Source of the DNA: a virus
Virus record (IMG/VR): IMGVR_UViG_3300009177_000057
Location: 1-45,938 of that record
Length of the DNA stretch: 45,938 nt
Direction: 5' to 3' (one strand)
Shown here piece by piece: positions 37,937-45,779 of this stretch. The stretch's first letter is position 1, and each line of letters opens with the position of its first letter. The notes under the pieces were generated by a model that was given only the letters and a program-made list of their open reading frames with translations, did not search any database and was not told the origin of the DNA. The translations under genes were made by a program, and so were the position numbers.

Positions 37937-38331
37937 TCCTGCCGCCCGCGACCGACCCTGCGGACCTGAACAACTTCGATCTTTTGACGAGTTCGGTGGT
38001 TCGTAAGGCGTGCACGCGAGCCATGACGACCATCAACAACTCTCGGCCGCAGGATTCGGTCATCCAGTTCGACTACGCTGGCATGACCCTGACCCATACC
38101 GTGTTCCGCAAGTGGCGCGAACGCTTCGACGGCGGGATCGCCGCGAGCATGTGGACAACGGAGTGGCAAGTCCTTTGGGATACCACCGGGGTGTGGGTCG
38201 GCGGGGATCGCGACGCTTTCGCCCGCGATGTGTTCTATCTGATGTTGGACGATCTAGACTTCGACTTCAGCAGCCTGCTGGTCGTTGGTGTATCCCAGAA
38301 GGGTGCGGATCGCCTTCTTGCCGTTGGATAG
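37933..38331 (+). CDS. Hypothetical protein, 132 aa
   Basis: The ATG overlaps the previous TGA. Begins MILPPATDPADLNNFDLLTS. The Trp/Arg-rich centre (THTVFRKWRERFDGGIAASM) and the acidic C-terminal helix (DRDAFARDVFYLMLDDLDFD) show no family. Its 3' end overlaps the leftward SLOG gene by 78 bases, so one of the two ends may be shorter in practice. The overlap is unusual for this genome. Confidence 0.6.
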   Translation: MILPPATDPADLNNFDLLTSSVVRKACTRAMTTINNSRPQDSVIQFDYAGMTLTHTVFRKWRERFDGGIAASMWTTEWQVLWDTTGVWVGGDRDAFARDVFYLMLDDLDFDFSSLLVVGVSQKGADRLLAVG

Positions 38332-38841
38332 CAGGTCCCGGCTACCGATGCCTGCCCAGACGCCGTGCGGCACGGGCGGCGGGCCGATAGCCACCCAATT
38401 CGACCCATCCCACATGAACCACATGTCGGTTTCCTGATCGAAGACGAATGCTTCACAGGCTTGGCCGCCGTGACGGTCGATGAACATCTGCACGGCCCAT
38501 GCGGTGCCGCCGGTGACGATCCCTTCCTCGAACTTGGCGACGGCGTAGACGCGCTCGGCGTCCTTCACCTGAAACCAGTTTCGGCGCAGAAGATTCTTCA
38601 CGAACGGGCTCTTGGGCGGGAACCACCGTTTAATGCCCACGGAAGCGGCCTTGCAGGACGCATCCGCCTCATCAAGCTGTTCCGGGGTCAGAACCACCAC
38701 TTCGGCCGCAGGAGCCTTCGTGCGATGCCCTGCGAAGCTGAAATGGACAACCATGTGCCCGGCCATCCCGGCACACATACCCCATTGCAGATCAGCACCC
38801 TCGGCGCCGCCGCTCAGGCAAACATTTTCAATCGAAGTCAT
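38254..38841 (-). CDS. SLOG/YspA-like Rossmann-fold protein, 195 aa
   Basis: The motif CLSGGAEGADLQWG (about 8-21) is the nucleotide- or sugar-binding loop of the DprA/LOG/SLOG superfamily. Downstream features match a phage/bacterial subfamily I recall: NLLRRNWFQVKDAERVYAVA, GIVTGGTAWAVQMFIDRHGG and, near the end, GVWAGIGSRDLLSNGKKAI. Such proteins sense or process nucleotide-derived ligands and some act in defence signalling. Here it could bind or destroy a host alarm nucleotide; that is inference. Length is full. It is coupled to the next upstream gene by a 14-base overlap. Confidence 0.8.
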   Translation of the reverse strand: MTSIENVCLSGGAEGADLQWGMCAGMAGHMVVHFSFAGHRTKAPAAEVVVLTPEQLDEADASCKAASVGIKRWFPPKSPFVKNLLRRNWFQVKDAERVYAVAKFEEGIVTGGTAWAVQMFIDRHGGQACEAFVFDQETDMWFMWDGSNWVAIGPPPVPHGVWAGIGSRDLLSNGKKAIRTLLGYTNDQQAAEVEV

Positions 38842-39700: not shown

Positions 39701-40267
39701 TTACGATGCCACAAAGTTAAATGGTGCGCAAACACCGCCGCTGAATTCGGCTGCCGCTTCGAGTGCAGCTTCCAGCCGACGCTTTGGCTTCAGCGCCGAA
39801 TGGGAGCCGGTCGAGTGCAGTGAGCCCATCGCGTAGCTATCGCCGCAGCCAACGGCGGCATAGCCGACGATGTTCTCACCAACTTGGTAGTCCGCGTCGA
39901 TCTGGAACAGGCGCCCACGGAACCCCACGAGGAAGCAACCACCGCTCTCTTCGTTGTCTTCGATCCGCCCGAAGCCATGGTTCTTGAAGGCTTTCCGCAA
40001 TGCCGGAATGAATTTCCGAACCATGAATTCCATGACCGGGTCATCATCGTCTTTGGCTTTCGCCACGAACGTGTCGAAACTCGGCGGATTGAAATCGTAA
40101 TGAAGAATTTGGCCCATCCGAAATGAGGATGTGAAGCCCATGGCGAATTCGCCGTTCATGAAGACCTTCTTGTCTTTTCTGACGACGATATGCAGACCAT
40201 CGACGCCAGCACTATCGCCAGCCAGATGGGTCTTGCCGTTATGAACAAGTCCAACAATGCAAGTCAT
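39701..40267 (-). CDS. Proteasome-beta/HslV-like Ntn hydrolase, 188 aa
   Basis: I start it at the ATG at 40267, so that the protein reads MTCIVGLVHNGK and the N-terminal Thr is exposed once Met is removed. The mature numbering gives T1, D17 (AGDSAGVDG) and K33 (DKKVF), exactly the catalytic triad of HslV and proteasome beta subunits. A later GCGDSYAMGSLHST matches the segment near S125-D-S in the family. Longer in-frame starts (40306) would bury the Thr. It may form a ring peptidase, with or without a host unfoldase. No ATPase partner is encoded nearby. Activity is inferred. Confidence 0.85.
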   Translation of the reverse strand: MTCIVGLVHNGKTHLAGDSAGVDGLHIVVRKDKKVFMNGEFAMGFTSSFRMGQILHYDFNPPSFDTFVAKAKDDDDPVMEFMVRKFIPALRKAFKNHGFGRIEDNEESGGCFLVGFRGRLFQIDADYQVGENIVGYAAVGCGDSYAMGSLHSTGSHSALKPKRRLEAALEAAAEFSGGVCAPFNFVAS

Positions 40268-40277
40268 AAAAAATCTC

Positions 40278-40931
40278 TTACAAACAGACGCGAAGAACTT
40301 CCGCATGGAGGTGGGAGATGCTGAGATCGTTGTCGATAGTCTCGTCGAGGGGTGAGCCGATCCACGCCCACTCGGATTCGTGGACCTTGAATTCGGTCTC
40401 CATCCGCAAGATGGCGTCTTGCTGGGACATCGGCTGCTTGGCCTGATCGGAGTGGCCGGTCGCGCTCAGCGCCACGTCAAACCATTCCGGTTCGGGTCCG
40501 CGCTTCACGCGCACCACCTTGCCCCCGAATTTGCGGCCGAGCCCAAGCTCATTTGGGAAACGACCGTCGCACAGGACGACGTTGTGGTTGCCACCGAGCA
40601 GGGTGATCTTCCGCTCGATGTTCATGATCCACAGGTCCATGTTGAAGTGCTGGCGGAACACATTCGTGCCCACCAATTGCATCGCCAGACGCGGGGTGAA
40701 ATCTGGGATACCGAGTTTCTCGGACCACCACGGGTCCACGGTTTCCCGCCATGCGCGGCTTTCGCCGGTGTCGCCTTCCAGCAAAGCCCGATCCCAGCAA
40801 AAGATCGAGGCGAGGGCGTCCTTCAGGCTCTCTGCGAAACTGAAGTTTTTATAGCCGTAATTTTCGACCAGAAAGCGCCCGGCAGTGTCCTTGCCACTGC
40901 CTTTGAAACCCACCAACGCGATCAATTTCAT
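40278..40931 (-). CDS. Deoxynucleoside monophosphate kinase, T4 gp1 type, 217 aa
   Basis: This enzyme turns dNMPs into dNDPs, letting the phage recycle degraded host DNA. The P-loop GFKGSGKDT (8-16) is followed by the family motifs FAESLKDALASIF, DFTPRLAMQLVGTNVFRQH and VLCDGRFPNELGLG. Length is close to T4 gp1 (about 240). ATG 40931 opens it. It is the first gene of the leftward unit 40931-38254, with only a weak promoter (ATGACA-17-TTAATA) visible upstream. Confidence 0.9.
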   Translation of the reverse strand: MKLIALVGFKGSGKDTAGRFLVENYGYKNFSFAESLKDALASIFCWDRALLEGDTGESRAWRETVDPWWSEKLGIPDFTPRLAMQLVGTNVFRQHFNMDLWIMNIERKITLLGGNHNVVLCDGRFPNELGLGRKFGGKVVRVKRGPEPEWFDVALSATGHSDQAKQPMSQQDAILRMETEFKVHESEWAWIGSPLDETIDNDLSISHLHAEVLRVCL

Positions 40932-40991: not shown

Positions 40992-41333
40992 TCAGGGAGG
41001 CGGATCGTGGAACATCTTGTAGAGGACCATATCCCGCTCACTGCCGAATTTCAGGCCGTAACGGTAGCTCCTTCGGCCACCGCCCACCCAGAACACTCGA
41101 ACCACTTTGAAACCGTCAACCAGATTTTCGCAGCACCAACCGAGATGGTCCGGCGCAATATGGAAGGAATGCGGGTAGGTCAGCCCCTTGCTCTTCTCTT
41201 TCGACGAGCGGCGGTATCGCTTGGCGAGCCAGAGCACCAGTGGCGGCCGGACGTTGCCCGACTCCACCTGAACATCTTCGAAGAGCACGTTCGCGTTAAA
41301 AATGTCGCGAACCATCCCCAGATTGTTCGTCAT
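40992..41333 (-). CDS. Small protein with S.RD..LYKMF motif, 113 aa
   Basis: The ATG at 41333 overlaps the preceding TGA; the longer reading lies inside the upstream gene. The product starts MTNNLGMVRDIFNANVLFED and ends YGLKFGSERDMVLYKMFHDPPP, a variant of the recurring C-terminal motif. The centre holds a His/Trp-rich segment (SFHIAPDHLGWCCENLVDGF). It is the last gene of the operon running from 44919. Confidence 0.7.
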   Translation of the reverse strand: MTNNLGMVRDIFNANVLFEDVQVESGNVRPPLVLWLAKRYRRSSKEKSKGLTYPHSFHIAPDHLGWCCENLVDGFKVVRVFWVGGGRRSYRYGLKFGSERDMVLYKMFHDPPP

Positions 41334-41665
41334 CGGAAACCGCGAGGCACCGGAGTTGTGGCGTCGTGGAGACGGATCGCGAGATGCGTGAAGCCCAGCC
41401 ACGCAAGAACCTGCATGAGAGGGTGCGCCACGACGTTGTGGAAGGCCCACGAGCCCTTCTTCCACTTCAGGCGGCGTCCCTCTACCGCGCTGGGTTTGAA
41501 GGCCCACACGGCTTCCACGGCGTCAAAGCCGCGCGCCACGAAACTTTCGCCCTCGACCGTGATGATCTCAACCTCGCTGTTCTCGATATTGGCGAGGTTG
41601 ATGCGCTTCACATGATCGAACGGGATCAGTTCATCCCCGGCTTTAAGACACAGCGGGCGCCACAT
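41330..41665 (-). CDS. Hypothetical protein with WAFHN..AHPLM motif, 111 aa
   Basis: The first 65 residues are beta-rich (ENSEVEIITVEGESFVARGF). The C-terminal segment KKGSWAFHNVVAHPLMQVLA and the end IRLHDATTPVP form a strongly conserved-looking pattern that I recall from an unnamed bacterial/phage family. The hydrophobic AHPLMQVLAWLGF may be membrane-associated. ATGA overlaps link it to both neighbours. Function unknown. Confidence 0.7.
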   Translation of the reverse strand: MWRPLCLKAGDELIPFDHVKRINLANIENSEVEIITVEGESFVARGFDAVEAVWAFKPSAVEGRRLKWKKGSWAFHNVVAHPLMQVLAWLGFTHLAIRLHDATTPVPRGFR

Positions 41666-42018
41666 CAGGACTTCTCCGCTGCGAACTTGTAGAGCCAGTC
41701 CGGCGCCGGGCCGGGGTCTTGGCGCGGCTTGGGCGGCGGATAGAGCAGAGTGAACGGAAAATGTTCCGCAACGATCTCTGCGTCGGAGCGGTCTTCACAC
41801 CGAACGGCAAAGTGAGCCACGGTATCGGTCATCTCGTCTTCGCGGTCCAACGAGATCATGAACCGGCCCTGCACCAGCGAACTCACGGCGGCGGTCAGCT
41901 TCGACTTGGCTTCGTGCCAGTTGCCGCCGGGGTTGCGGGTAACATCGACCTTATGCCAGTCGATCAGATAGCCCATGAACGCCAGTGGGTCAGCTTCGGG
42001 AGCGATCAGCGTGCCCAT
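41665..42018 (-). CDS. Hypothetical protein, 117 aa
   Basis: Starts MGTLIAPEADPLAFMGYLID at an ATG overlapping the preceding TGA. A segment FAVRCEDRSDAEIVAEHFPF is a distant echo of the S..DA motif of other small proteins here, but lacks the FK. The C-terminus is Pro-rich (TLLYPPPKPRQDPGPAPDWL). No family recognised. Confidence 0.65.
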   Translation of the reverse strand: MGTLIAPEADPLAFMGYLIDWHKVDVTRNPGGNWHEAKSKLTAAVSSLVQGRFMISLDREDEMTDTVAHFAVRCEDRSDAEIVAEHFPFTLLYPPPKPRQDPGPAPDWLYKFAAEKS

Positions 42019-42515
42019 CAGGCGACCTTGTATTTGGCCGTCAGGTCTTTGAGCGCACTGGTGGTGCCGTAGAGCTTCACGCTCAGTTCGAGCATGTCCT
42101 CGAAATTGGTGACCACGAACACGTTCGGATGCGTGTTGGCCGCGAGGTGGGCCTTGACCAGCACCCGAGCCCGCACGCTTTCCTTGAAGGCGACGGCGTC
42201 AGCCTTCAGGGCTTCGTCCGGCTCGTCGTCGATCATGACCACAATGTAGCGGCTGGCGTTCTGGACGGCTTGCAGGATCGAGAAGCCCGTCTCGGCCAGC
42301 GAGCCGGTGCCGTAGGTTTCGCTGGTCACCGGGAAGAGGATGATCTCGTCCCGCTTCAGGTGTTCAGCTTCGATGTCCGCGTATTCCGGCTTCCAGTCGG
42401 AGACCTGCGGATTGAAATATCGGATGCCGAGCGCGTTGTAGCGCTCGATGAAAGCCGCCCGCCAAGTGCTGTTGCCGCACGTCCCGAACAGACCGATGCA
42501 AGGAAGATTCTTCAT
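42018..42515 (-). CDS. Nucleoside 2-deoxyribosyltransferase-like protein, 165 aa
   Basis: I start it at the ATG at 42515 (MKNLPCIGLFGTCGNSTWR), since longer readings overlap the upstream gene. The family features are visible: GLFGTCGNSTWR, the YFNPQVSDWKPE turn, HLKRDEIILFPVTSETYGTG and a Glu in SLAETGFSIL that would be the nucleophile. Members exchange or remove the base of deoxynucleosides or act on related nucleotides. In a phage that recycles nucleotides this fits salvage or removal of an unwanted nucleotide. Substrate unknown. Confidence 0.75.
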   Translation of the reverse strand: MKNLPCIGLFGTCGNSTWRAAFIERYNALGIRYFNPQVSDWKPEYADIEAEHLKRDEIILFPVTSETYGTGSLAETGFSILQAVQNASRYIVVMIDDEPDEALKADAVAFKESVRARVLVKAHLAANTHPNVFVVTNFEDMLELSVKLYGTTSALKDLTAKYKVA

Positions 42516-42649
42516 TACCAACCCCAAGCCCAACGACGGACCATGTCCCAAGGCCAACGACTCGCCATGATGCGATCATGTTCGTCGAAGGCTTCATCCG
42601 ACCAATCGTCGGGGTGTCCCCAAAATCTTTTCGGCGGAATCAAGATCAT
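42515..42649 (-). CDS. Trp-rich mini-protein, 44 aa
   Basis: Start ATG 42649; stop TAA shares one base with the next ATG (TAATG). The product MILIPPKRFWGHPDDWSDEA ends WPWDMVRRWAWGW, with an unusually high Trp content. It is coupled on both sides. No family recognised. Confidence 0.6.
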   Translation of the reverse strand: MILIPPKRFWGHPDDWSDEAFDEHDRIMASRWPWDMVRRWAWGW

Positions 42650-42831
42650 TGATCGTGCTTCGCAAGCCGTCCGCCGACGATGACGATCAAAATCCCGGCG
42701 GCCACGATCAGACCGAGGCCCGAGAACCAAATCGCATTGTATTTCGGAAGCTTGTCCGCGCCCCACGCATCAGCGAGCGCGAGCAGCAGAAGCCCGTTGC
42801 ACGCCCATGCGAGTTTGCGGCGCGCGGTCAT
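42646..42831 (-). CDS. Two-helix small membrane protein, 61 aa
   Basis: Two hydrophobic helices (about 8-22, AWACNGLLLLALADAW, and about 33-53, AIWFSGLGLIVAAGILIVIV) with a short basic C-terminus (GGRLAKHDQ). It is expected in the host inner membrane. ATGA overlaps join it to both neighbours. Function unknown. Confidence 0.7.
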   Translation of the reverse strand: MTARRKLAWACNGLLLLALADAWGADKLPKYNAIWFSGLGLIVAAGILIVIVGGRLAKHDQ

Positions 42832-44099
42832 GCGACCATGCCGCCAGTCTTCTTCGACAGGTCGAAGTTCGCGTTGATGAAGGCGATCACGTCGTTCGCC
42901 GGGGTGTAGCGCGAGAAGACCACGTTCGGGCCATGCTCATCGAGCATCACGACCTTCAGGTCTTTCCGTTCGCCGACCGGCCGCAGGTTGCGGCTGGTGT
43001 TGGCGCCGCACTGGTGGCTGCCGCACTCGTTCTGCCATTGGTCGGCCACCGGGATCACGTCCGGGTGGTTGTCGCGCAGCGGGGAGTGGAAGTGGACGAT
43101 GCAGTCCAGTTCGGGGTGCTCGCGGAAGACGATCCGCTGCGATTGCCCGCCGACCGACGGCTTGGCGCCGTGGGCGATGACCTTGCTGTCGCCTTCGTAT
43201 TCGACCAGCACGAGACCTTCCTTGGAAAGGTCGTTGAAATTCCGCTTGCGCTTGGACGTGATGATCCGGCCTTCGTCCAGTTTCACGGCGAAGTGCCCGG
43301 CGGTCACACCCCGGAAGGGCTTGTAGGCGCCGCGCTCGATGCAGTAGTCCACCACCTCGCGGAGGTTCTCGGGGATCATGGGCGAATCCCATTCCACCGA
43401 GGGACCGGGCACGACGGTCGAACGCGTGAAGGTGTTGCGCGAACGGGACATGACCATTTTCGCGAGAATGGTCAGAACCATGTCTCGGGATTGCGTCTCG
43501 CAGTAGCGCGTCTCTTCCGGCGCCACGATCATGTTGTTGCGGGTGACCATGTCGTTGGCCAGCACGAGGTTCAGGCTGTCGCGCTTCAGCATGTCGAGCG
43601 CGATGCGGTATTGGTCGTCGGACGTTTCGCCGGTCGTGGTCTTGAAGCCGACGACGAAGATGTCCTTACGGTCCTGCCTGATCTTGCCGATCAGCTTGTT
43701 GGACGCGGTCAGTTCCATCAGCGGCCGACCATTGACGCGGGTCTTCAGGCGCGCGGCGTGCGGGCCGGAAGGGATCGCCGGGTTGAGAACCGAACCGTCG
43801 TCGGTGATCGTCCCGTCGTAGTCGCAGATCGCTGAGTTCAGGATGATGACGCGGGTGTCCGGGTCCGCGATCAACGTGTCAAGCAGAGCCGACACGTCGT
43901 CGTTGGTGACCAGCTTGCTGCGATGGTCGGCCATCTTCGTCAGATGGAGGTTCACATCGTATTCGTGCTGATCGTCCATGTGCGGCGCCAGCAGTTCATG
44001 GAGCTTGCGAGCCGTGCCGCCGAACGCCGGGGCGGCCAGAGCCAGATGGTTGCGGACGTGCGAGAAGGTCCCGCCGCCGATGATGTGAATCTTTTTCAT
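42828..44099 (-). CDS. Fusion of CoaB-like (DFP) domain and class II aldolase-like domain, 423 aa
   Basis: The N-terminal ~220 residues resemble phosphopantothenoylcysteine synthetase (CoaB/DFP): the nucleotide-binding GGGTFSHVRNH (8-18), VIILNSAICDY (85-94), ASNKLIGKI and LVLANDMVT (Asn-Asp at 182-183). The last ~180 residues resemble class II aldolase/adducin domains: GVTAGHFAVKLDEGRIITS and a metal site IVHFHSP (H336, H338) with H362 in CGSHQCG. I start it at ATG 44099 because longer readings run into the upstream small gene. The fusion would join two metabolic folds in one phage enzyme. The substrate and reaction are unknown. Confidence 0.75.
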   Translation of the reverse strand: MKKIHIIGGGTFSHVRNHLALAAPAFGGTARKLHELLAPHMDDQHEYDVNLHLTKMADHRSKLVTNDDVSALLDTLIADPDTRVIILNSAICDYDGTITDDGSVLNPAIPSGPHAARLKTRVNGRPLMELTASNKLIGKIRQDRKDIFVVGFKTTTGETSDDQYRIALDMLKRDSLNLVLANDMVTRNNMIVAPEETRYCETQSRDMVLTILAKMVMSRSRNTFTRSTVVPGPSVEWDSPMIPENLREVVDYCIERGAYKPFRGVTAGHFAVKLDEGRIITSKRKRNFNDLSKEGLVLVEYEGDSKVIAHGAKPSVGGQSQRIVFREHPELDCIVHFHSPLRDNHPDVIPVADQWQNECGSHQCGANTSRNLRPVGERKDLKVVMLDEHGPNVVFSRYTPANDVIAFINANFDLSKKTGGMVA

Positions 44100-44203
44100 G
44101 CAGCCACCATGTATTTGCAGGCGATGAAGATGCCCACGCCGACAGCCATCACCACAAGGGCGATATTCTGCCAACCGACGAAACGAATGAACTCTCGAAT
44201 CAT
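44096..44203 (-). CDS. Single-pass mini-membrane protein, 35 aa
   Basis: Start ATG 44203, stop TGA at 44096-44098. The product reads MIREFIRFVGWQNIALVVMA and continues as one hydrophobic helix. It overlaps the flanking genes by ATGA at both ends, which is the main evidence that it is real. Confidence 0.65.
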   Translation of the reverse strand: MIREFIRFVGWQNIALVVMAVGVGIFIACKYMVAA

Positions 44204-44919
44204 GGCATCAGGGAGAATTTACCGACGAACGGCGAGGCCACGCTCTTCTTGGCGAAGACGTAGCCGCACGTATCGAGCGGGATGAGGTGGAAGCTGGCGC
44301 CGTCGCGCAGCGGATAGCTCGGGTCGTGAGTGATGCCCGCGTGCAGCCCAGCCGCCGCAGCGGCCTCGACCGTGGCGCGCATCTCGTGTTCGGTGACGCC
44401 CAGCACGATGCAGGTCCCGAAGCCATTGGCCGCGTTCTCCCATTCGTCCAGCAGGTCTTCAAACTCGCTGAGTTTTGCGAGATCGGTGGTTTCGTCGCCA
44501 GCGATCCGTTTACGGGCCTCGAACACCATCTGATTGGCGGCGTGACTGCCTTGAGCGACGGCCTTGCCCGCGTTCATCGACGCGAGATCGGTGCGCATCA
44601 GGATGTAGAGGTAGGGTTCGTCGGTGACGGTGGGCAGATCACCCAGCGCGGCGCGCAGGCCGTCGGTCACTTCCGTCAGGCTGTCGCCGAACAGACGGTG
44701 CGCCTTGTAGCCACGGACGAAGAGTTGGGCGGCGAGGGTCACCTCGGGCTCGACCGGGGTCGTCTCGTCGATGAGCGACTCGCGCAGGTTGGCCGTGGCC
44801 TCGTCGATGAGATCGGCCCCGATGACCGTCAGAACGATGGTCGCAGCTTCGCGAACGCTCAGCGGATTGGCGGCTGCCCATTCGGCGGGAGTGATGGTCG
44901 GGCCGATGCTGTCGGTCAT
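44200..44919 (-). CDS. Peptidyl-tRNA hydrolase 2 (PTH2) domain protein, 239 aa
   Basis: The C-terminal half matches the archaeal/eukaryotic-type peptidyl-tRNA hydrolase 2: EPYLYILMRTDLASMNAGKA, AQGSHAANQMVFEA and the closing motif RDGASFHLIPLDTCG. This enzyme frees tRNA from peptidyl-tRNA that drops off ribosomes. An extra N-terminal helical region (about 1-100) and a charged insert are unlike the short archaeal forms. It stands first in the long leftward operon, with a strong promoter and AAGGAG ribosome-binding site. With argS this gives the phage two translation-support enzymes. Confidence 0.85.
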   Translation of the reverse strand: MTDSIGPTITPAEWAAANPLSVREAATIVLTVIGADLIDEATANLRESLIDETTPVEPEVTLAAQLFVRGYKAHRLFGDSLTEVTDGLRAALGDLPTVTDEPYLYILMRTDLASMNAGKAVAQGSHAANQMVFEARKRIAGDETTDLAKLSEFEDLLDEWENAANGFGTCIVLGVTEHEMRATVEAAAAAGLHAGITHDPSYPLRDGASFHLIPLDTCGYVFAKKSVASPFVGKFSLMP

Positions 44920-44982: not shown

Positions 44983-45240
44983 TCACCAATACCAGTGGCC
45001 ACGCTCGTGCTTGAAACGAGCCTTGAATTGAAACAGCTTCATGATGCCCCAGATGCCTTCGAGAAGGCCAAAAGGAGCGGCACCCTGCATGAAACCATAG
45101 GCCGAACCCAAGAAACAGGCCCCGCCGAAACCCAGCGTCCACCAGTAGCTTTTTCGCTCGAACGTGTCGCACAACAGCATGGTCCCCACCGCGATCAATC
45201 CGAAGATCGTCAGGCTGTCCATGTGTGTGAGCCAGTTCAT
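44983..45240 (-). CDS. Small membrane protein, 85 aa
   Basis: I chose ATG 45240 (MNWLTHMDSLTIFGLIAVGT), which overlaps the stop of the phosphoesterase gene. Two to three hydrophobic stretches follow (FGLIAVGTMLLC, WWTLGFGGACFLGSAYGFM, GLLEGIWGIMKLF). The C-terminus is basic (FKARFKHERGHWYW). It is coupled to the phosphoesterase. Function unknown. Confidence 0.65.
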   Translation of the reverse strand: MNWLTHMDSLTIFGLIAVGTMLLCDTFERKSYWWTLGFGGACFLGSAYGFMQGAAPFGLLEGIWGIMKLFQFKARFKHERGHWYW

Positions 45241-45779
45241 TTTTCGCGTGCCTTGTGATGATCCACCGAGTGATACGGCGGGTAGGTGCGGAGCCGACGC
45301 AGGATTTGTTCCAGCGTCACTGGGATTTGGCCGAAGTTGTCCACGCCCACATCGCAACTTTGGTCGCTGCCGGGCAGCGAGCCATGCGAATGGCCATGGA
45401 ACATGAGAGAGCCACGATGGCTCTTGTTCCAGACCTTCATAGCATAGTGGCAGAGCACAATGAAGTGCCCATCCAGCCTGATCTCAAGCATAGGCTGAGC
45501 AGATGCCCACAGGGGATCGGCGCGAACTTGATCGCTGTCGTGGTTTCCCCAGATCAGATGCTTGTTGCCATTGAGGCGCGCGAGGATCGCGGGCGCGGGC
45601 GTCTTGCCCATCGCGAAGTCGCCAAGATGGTAGATGTCATCCTCGGGGCCGACAACGGAGTTCCAGTTGCGGATGAGGGCCTCGTCCATTTCTTCAACGT
45701 CTTTGAAGGGCCGGTTCGAGTATTTGATGATGTTGCGATGGCCGAAATGCGTATCGCTCGTAAACAGAGTCTTTTTCAT
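45237..45779 (-). CDS. YfcE-like metallophosphoesterase, 180 aa
   Basis: The metal ligands are clear: TSDTHFGH (D9, H11), GDF at 53-55, GNHD (78-81), H111 in VLCHYA and HGHSH (128-132). This is the compact bacterial and phage phosphoesterase type, distinct from the larger enzyme at 882. Substrate unknown. The ATG at 45779 lies nine bases after a -10 element, so the leader is very short or absent. It is the first gene of a two-gene leftward unit. Confidence 0.9.
   Translation of the reverse strand: MKKTLFTSDTHFGHRNIIKYSNRPFKDVEEMDEALIRNWNSVVGPEDDIYHLGDFAMGKTPAPAILARLNGNKHLIWGNHDSDQVRADPLWASAQPMLEIRLDGHFIVLCHYAMKVWNKSHRGSLMFHGHSHGSLPGSDQSCDVGVDNFGQIPVTLEQILRRLRTYPPYHSVDHHKAREK

Follow-up and report, generated by a model that had tools for sequence, protein, structure and literature searches.

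A conserved fusion of CoaB-like and class II aldolase-like domains in viral contigs and scattered bacterial genomes, tentatively placed in coenzyme A metabolism

What does a viral protein do that joins a CoaB-like domain to a class II aldolase-like domain in a single chain? The question is raised by one reading frame of the IMG/VR virus record IMGVR_UViG_3300009177_000057, which we analysed over its whole length of 45,938 nucleotides (hereafter, the window). A first-pass annotation had located this frame at 42828-44099, had seen both folds in its translation and knew of no described enzyme that combines them. The coordinates are right and the gene lies on the minus strand, with its ATG at 44099 and its stop at 42828-42830, encoding 423 amino acids; read in the given frame, the plus strand of 42828-44099 runs into a stop and does not give the fusion protein. 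The assignment of the gene product as a CoaB-like/class II aldolase-like fusion draws on its translation, on Pfam, on 78 distinct homologues and on a structure model.

The fusion protein and its family

The CoaB-like domain occupies residues 1-223 (43431-44099, minus strand) and the class II aldolase-like domain residues 238-416 (42852-43388, minus strand), both delimited by structural comparison, alignment and conservation. In Pfam, DFP (CoaB) scores 23.8 bits at residues 114-189, where the gathering cut-off is 22, and Aldolase_II scores 37.8 bits at residues 264-340 (gathering cut-off 22.2). PHROG 35624, a family of unknown function, spans residues 1-218 (E 2e-48), and PHROG 13212 spans residues 264-340. 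A profile of 41 fusion relatives aligned with Streptococcus pneumoniae CoaB (2gk4) over positions 3-200 with an E of 1.1e-11. The AlphaFold model, for which an alignment of 40 sequences was the input, has a mean pLDDT of 93.8 and a pTM of 0.90; its residues 1-221 match 2gk4 with Z 21.8 (2.5 Å over 197 residues) and its residues 238-413 match L-fuculose-1-phosphate aldolase FucA (1dzv) with Z 13.8 (3.2 Å over 156 residues), and the model matches E. coli CoaB (1u7z) with Z 19.6. Pyruvic oxime dioxygenase is also among its closest fold matches, and a BFVD fold search with the fusion gave zero matches at E <= 0.001. Structure prediction thus bears out that the second half has a class II aldolase fold and that both folds are present in one protein.

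The fusion is a real, widespread and conserved protein family. We aligned 78 distinct full-length members, with a median pairwise identity of 52% and a minimum of 32%, so the two halves are not always separate genes in relatives. The majority are found in viral contigs of up to 578 kb and the others in scattered MAGs. An IMG/VR scan with a small alignment gave 71 loci, mostly full-length fusions of 390-475 amino acids, on contigs as short as a few kb and as long as several hundred kb, and a tblastn search found a full-length homologue with 51.7% identity in LR756511.1, a 595-kb uncultured phage and the sole INPHARED phage record returned with the fusion. When the aldolase half was the sole query against 84,980 bacterial and archaeal genomes, 20 MAG loci were recovered, all 20 of them fusions, with no stand-alone relative of this half among them. 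The MAG carriers belong to Armatimonadetes, Polyangiaceae, Alphaproteobacteria, Saccharibacteria, Paceibacterota, Uhrbacteria, Saprospiraceae and others. These cellular copies are interspersed with the viral ones in a maximum-likelihood tree, on several distinct branches; two rows of this run (L137 and L142) were labelled viral though they come from MAGs, and its change counts are inexact. A literature search covering few subscription journals found no paper describing a CoaB-aldolase fusion, and the protein is apparently undescribed in the literature searched, as the first-pass annotation had supposed.

The alphaproteobacterial copies carry an N-terminal HTH_31/HTH_3 domain that was seen in no other clade (L094, L096, L100-L103 and L113-L121, all in MAGs; order of G005, 9/142 genomes), and in several of them the fusion adjoins a penicillin-binding-protein-like gene. 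Mostly, an M23-like gene and a small partner gene, described below, lie downstream. In all fusion carriers of this order except G403, a frame of CoaBC size gives a strong DFP match as well, and most fusion-bearing alphaproteobacteria have their own PanK, so the fusion is an extra in these bacteria. Caulobacter Bertelyvirus and Pseudomonas phages have CoaB-like proteins that lack the aldolase half, and no aldolase gene was seen adjoining the CoaB-only genes of these phages. The CoaB-only gene of the Pseudomonas phages overlaps with an M23-like gene (L005:8591-9268 and L083), relatives of which stand downstream of the fusion in Alphaproteobacteria.

Active-site residues of the two halves

The CoaB-like half shares with CoaB/PPCS (PF04127) the fold of the whole domain, the GGT loop, GFK, the ND motif and the Asp of the cation/nucleotide site, which is D93 in the fusion. 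Indeed, nearly all members retain G9-T11 (GGGT), D93, F152, K172 and N182-D183, in partial agreement with the first-pass annotation, which had described the DFP nucleotide motifs as kept. However, the catalytic Asn of the CoaB NxSSG loop, Asn210 in E. coli, is never present. At the equivalent position 23, assigned by profile alignment to 2gk4, the 78 sequences carry A (67), T (7), S (2), V (1) or a gap (1), and the fusion has APAFG in place of the loop. The K-X-K-K loop, which in CoaB contacts the CTP triphosphate (PMC7794376), is also replaced, aligning to R117-L-x-[TS] with its first position still basic; the window protein itself has A23 and R117-L-x-T. Because of these two replacements, canonical PPC synthesis is doubtful. 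The fusion scores 26.7 bits against the CoaB equivalog cut-off of 265 (NF005231) and 24.5 bits against 219.7 (TIGR00521), and Pfam finds no flavoprotein (PF02441) CoaC domain in it.

With FucA, AraD and MtnB (PF00596) the second half shares the fold and a metal triad made up of HxH and HG. Fourteen polar, Gly or metal-site residues are invariant over the 78 sequences: H269, R284, N289, S315, G317, Q321, H336, H338, Q354, C359, S361, C364, H389 and N392. Position 362, which had been taken for the third metal ligand beside H336 and H338, is H in 70 of the 78 fusions and L, M or F in the others. Since H336, H338 and H389 are found in 78/78 and H362 varies, the likely metal triad is H336/H338/H389, the last placed by its 'HG' motif and the secondary structure of the model; the first two ligands originally proposed therefore stand and the third is replaced. 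In profile alignments with E. coli FucA and AraD, the catalytic acid (FucA Glu73, AraD Asp76) aligns to G317, which is Gly in 78/78, and FucA Asn29 aligns to H269, the FucA chain used in the residue alignment being the E73S mutant. Judged from these alignments, the aldolase-like half is without the catalytic acid of FucA/AraD-type aldolases or epimerases. Its best aldolase-type NCBIfam model is MtnB, with 26.0 bits against a cut-off of 226, and C359-G-S-x-x-C364 is an invariant motif of the fusion's own, by which it differs from class II aldolases.

The key catalytic residues of both halves are thus replaced and the fusion is strictly a member of neither enzyme family. Its conservation indicates that both halves are under strong constraint, though neither is predicted to be a standard enzyme of its family. 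Of the earlier view that both halves look active, the folds, the invariant His triad and the strong conservation survive, but the canonical catalytic residues (Glu73, changed to Gly, the CoaB Asn and KxKK) do not.

Coenzyme A genes and a small partner protein near the fusion

In the Saccharibacterium G001 the fusion (L105; L137:6407-8805) lies upstream of a separate coaB (DFP E 2e-34) and coaC (E 5e-28), the three genes being consecutive, with coaD and coaE at most 8 kb away. The CoaB-like half of this copy is degenerate and its aldolase-like half intact, from which we infer that the aldolase-like half must do other work than CoaB. In the class to which G001 belongs, CoaC was found in only 8/392 genomes and the fusion in 3/392. 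A CoaB homologue stands directly before the fusion in the Uhrbacterium L095. On the viral contig L049 a CoaD-CoaE protein (TIGR01510 160 bits and TIGR00152 89 bits, both over the equivalog cut-off) ends 40 nt before the fusion, and in the MAG G010 (L106) a CoaD-CoaE ORF lies about 2 kb from it. The two single ORFs (L049:3786-4955 and L106:1855-3078) have the same arrangement as the eukaryotic CoA synthase.

Among fusion-bearing virus records, CoaE exceeded the cut-off in 7/35 (3/17 and 4/18 in two sets) and CoaD in 5/24, most of these phage genes being distant from the fusion. As a rough background and not a matched control, a single CoaE tblastn query matched 28 of 50,697 INPHARED records, many of which are unannotated gut fragments or look bacterial. 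CoaD is carried as well by huge phages without the fusion, namely Lak and Brevundimonas phages, and CoaD alone is therefore not specific. CoaC was absent from 24 of the 25 fusion-bearing genomes and records, viral records and MAGs being incomplete (control 14/14), and no type III PanK was found in the Patescibacteria and viral records tested. Taken together, gene contents and neighbourhoods link the fusion with moderate strength to CoA metabolism.

A small protein of about 110 amino acids (111 in the window) is encoded at 41330-41665 on the minus strand of the window, and homologues lie downstream of the fusion, on the same strand, in 19/70 distinct fusion loci (phages, Alphaproteobacteria and Uhrbacteria). 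It is also present in L095, L101, L154, L162 and others. An IMG/VR scan with this small partner gave 31 long-form copies, not deduplicated, of which 27 have the fusion within a 5-kb flank (for one of them, a CoaB-like match only), often with an overlap of a few bases, and in a further one the distance is about 5 kb, so that 28/31 viral contigs link the two; the seed alignment came from fusion loci, and a bias towards such loci is possible in these counts. Short forms of about 70 amino acids occur in other phages with no fusion nearby. Long-form residues P58, E62, G63, W73, H76, N77, H81, P82, Q85, H100, T103 and P105 are invariant. No Pfam family was found for it, and the model (pLDDT 88.5, pTM 0.61) had zero Foldseek matches at E <= 0.001, which is not proof of a new fold. 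In L150 (G569:C1:225832-226202) the small partner has no fusion with it, but a broken frame resembling CoaE lies at a distance of about 5 kb.

Possible roles of the fusion

Our leading explanation, which we put forward tentatively, is that the fusion is a conserved two-domain enzyme acting in coenzyme A (4'-phosphopantetheine) metabolism, as an unusual CoA-pathway enzyme with a predicted metal-dependent step. It is based on the two folds, the invariant three-His site, the mostly kept CoaB-type nucleotide pocket and the CoA genes that accompany the fusion in several genomes independently. With CTP, or another NTP, the CoaB-like half would activate phosphopantothenate, or a closely similar compound, at its carboxylate. 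The metal half, in the least certain part of the scheme, might act on the substrate or product in a coupled reaction other than an aldol one. The fusion would thereby bridge the part of the pathway that leads up to CoaD, in which the fusion-bearing phages and most of the tested Patescibacteria are without CoaC, and we assume that the small partner (41330-41665) works together with it. Among the auxiliary metabolic genes reported from phages are coaD and coaE, for which no purpose has been established (PMC11097641); to these two the family would add an unrecognised third protein and its conserved partner, and it would offer a concrete enzyme to assay. If the metal half does act on a CoA intermediate, it would represent new chemistry in a highly conserved cofactor pathway.

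An alternative is that the fusion serves in sensing, regulation or counter-defence by binding or destroying a signal derived from a nucleotide, its two enzyme-like folds being used for ligand recognition. The HTH domain of the alphaproteobacterial copies would fit such a function, as would the TrmB-type regulators near the fusion in Patescibacteria loci and in L106, and the NADAR, Macro, ADP-ribosylglycohydrolase and Tad6 proteins of the phage neighbourhoods. However, the HTH is limited to one clade, and the fourteen residues invariant across 78 sequences in the aldolase-like half are typical of catalysis, and we regard this alternative as unlikely. Rather unlikely, too, is an enzyme of some other pathway, such as sugar phosphate or sulfur compound metabolism or Fe(II)-dependent oxidation, with a different acid and amine as the compounds that the CoaB-like domain would join. 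Here the resemblance to pyruvic oxime dioxygenase is relevant, an Fe(II) enzyme of class II aldolase fold that has the three His and is also without Glu73 and the sugar-phosphate residues (PMC5216522). It differs from the fusion in being a single domain of another sequence family, the likeness being confined to the fold and the lost residues, and the recurrence of CoA genes near the fusion speaks against a pathway elsewhere.

The most specific form of the coenzyme A explanation is a flavin-free analogue of CoaBC, in which the metal half, replacing the flavoprotein CoaC, decarboxylates the phosphopantothenoylcysteine that the CoaB-like half has made. Decarboxylases with the class II aldolase fold are known, CoaC is missing in almost all the carriers tested, of which several have CoaD and CoaE, and the architecture parallels that of bifunctional CoaBC, where a CoaB fold is likewise joined to a second domain and found in CoA-gene contexts; in CoaBC, however, that domain is an N-terminal flavoprotein, and in the fusion it is a C-terminal class II aldolase fold. 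The simplest version is disfavoured because the CoaB Asn is lost and because coaB and coaC coexist with the fusion in G001, where coaC adjoins it. Mechanistically, moreover, oxidation of the cysteinyl thiol by canonical CoaC depends on FMN, and a divalent metal by itself would offer no obvious electron sink. We thus consider the analogue improbable, and give still less credence to the proposal that the fusion and its small partner, in huge phages and some Patescibacteria, turn phosphopantothenate (or an analogue) into phosphopantetheine by a flavin-independent route not described before.

Coenzyme A metabolism is in any case a better-supported context than nucleotide or DNA base modification, which had been suggested from the adjacent deoxyribosyltransferase-like protein. 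The window does encode a nucleoside 2-deoxyribosyltransferase (NDT)-like protein (PF15891, E 1e-8; 42018-42557, minus strand) and a dNMP kinase, and L003, L017/L025 and L011/L054 have NDT-like genes in the neighbourhood of the fusion, but these amount to about three lineages with diverse sequences, about 70 distinct fusion loci yielded no further one, and many fusion carriers are cellular genomes, so that this role has little support and is very unlikely. As a constant partner of the fusion the NDT-like gene was rejected, an iterative HMM over the collected loci finding it only in the window and its near-copy records and in the lineages just named.

The remaining neighbours are on the minus strand as well. 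Immediately upstream of the fusion lies a gene for a PTH2 (peptidyl-tRNA hydrolase 2)-like domain protein (44200-44919; Pfam E 2.5e-9), and a PTH2-related gene is also near the fusion in L024 and L025. On the other side, the ORF list has a 61-residue frame with a hydrophobic stretch (42646-42831), whose start overlaps the fusion stop, and a 117-residue frame of unknown function (41665-42018) with one-base overlaps with its neighbours. The same minus-strand block includes genes for a DprA-like protein (38254-38841), an HslV-like peptidase (phrog_1040; 39701-40306), the dNMP kinase (40278-40931) and a calcineurin-like phosphoesterase (45237-45779).
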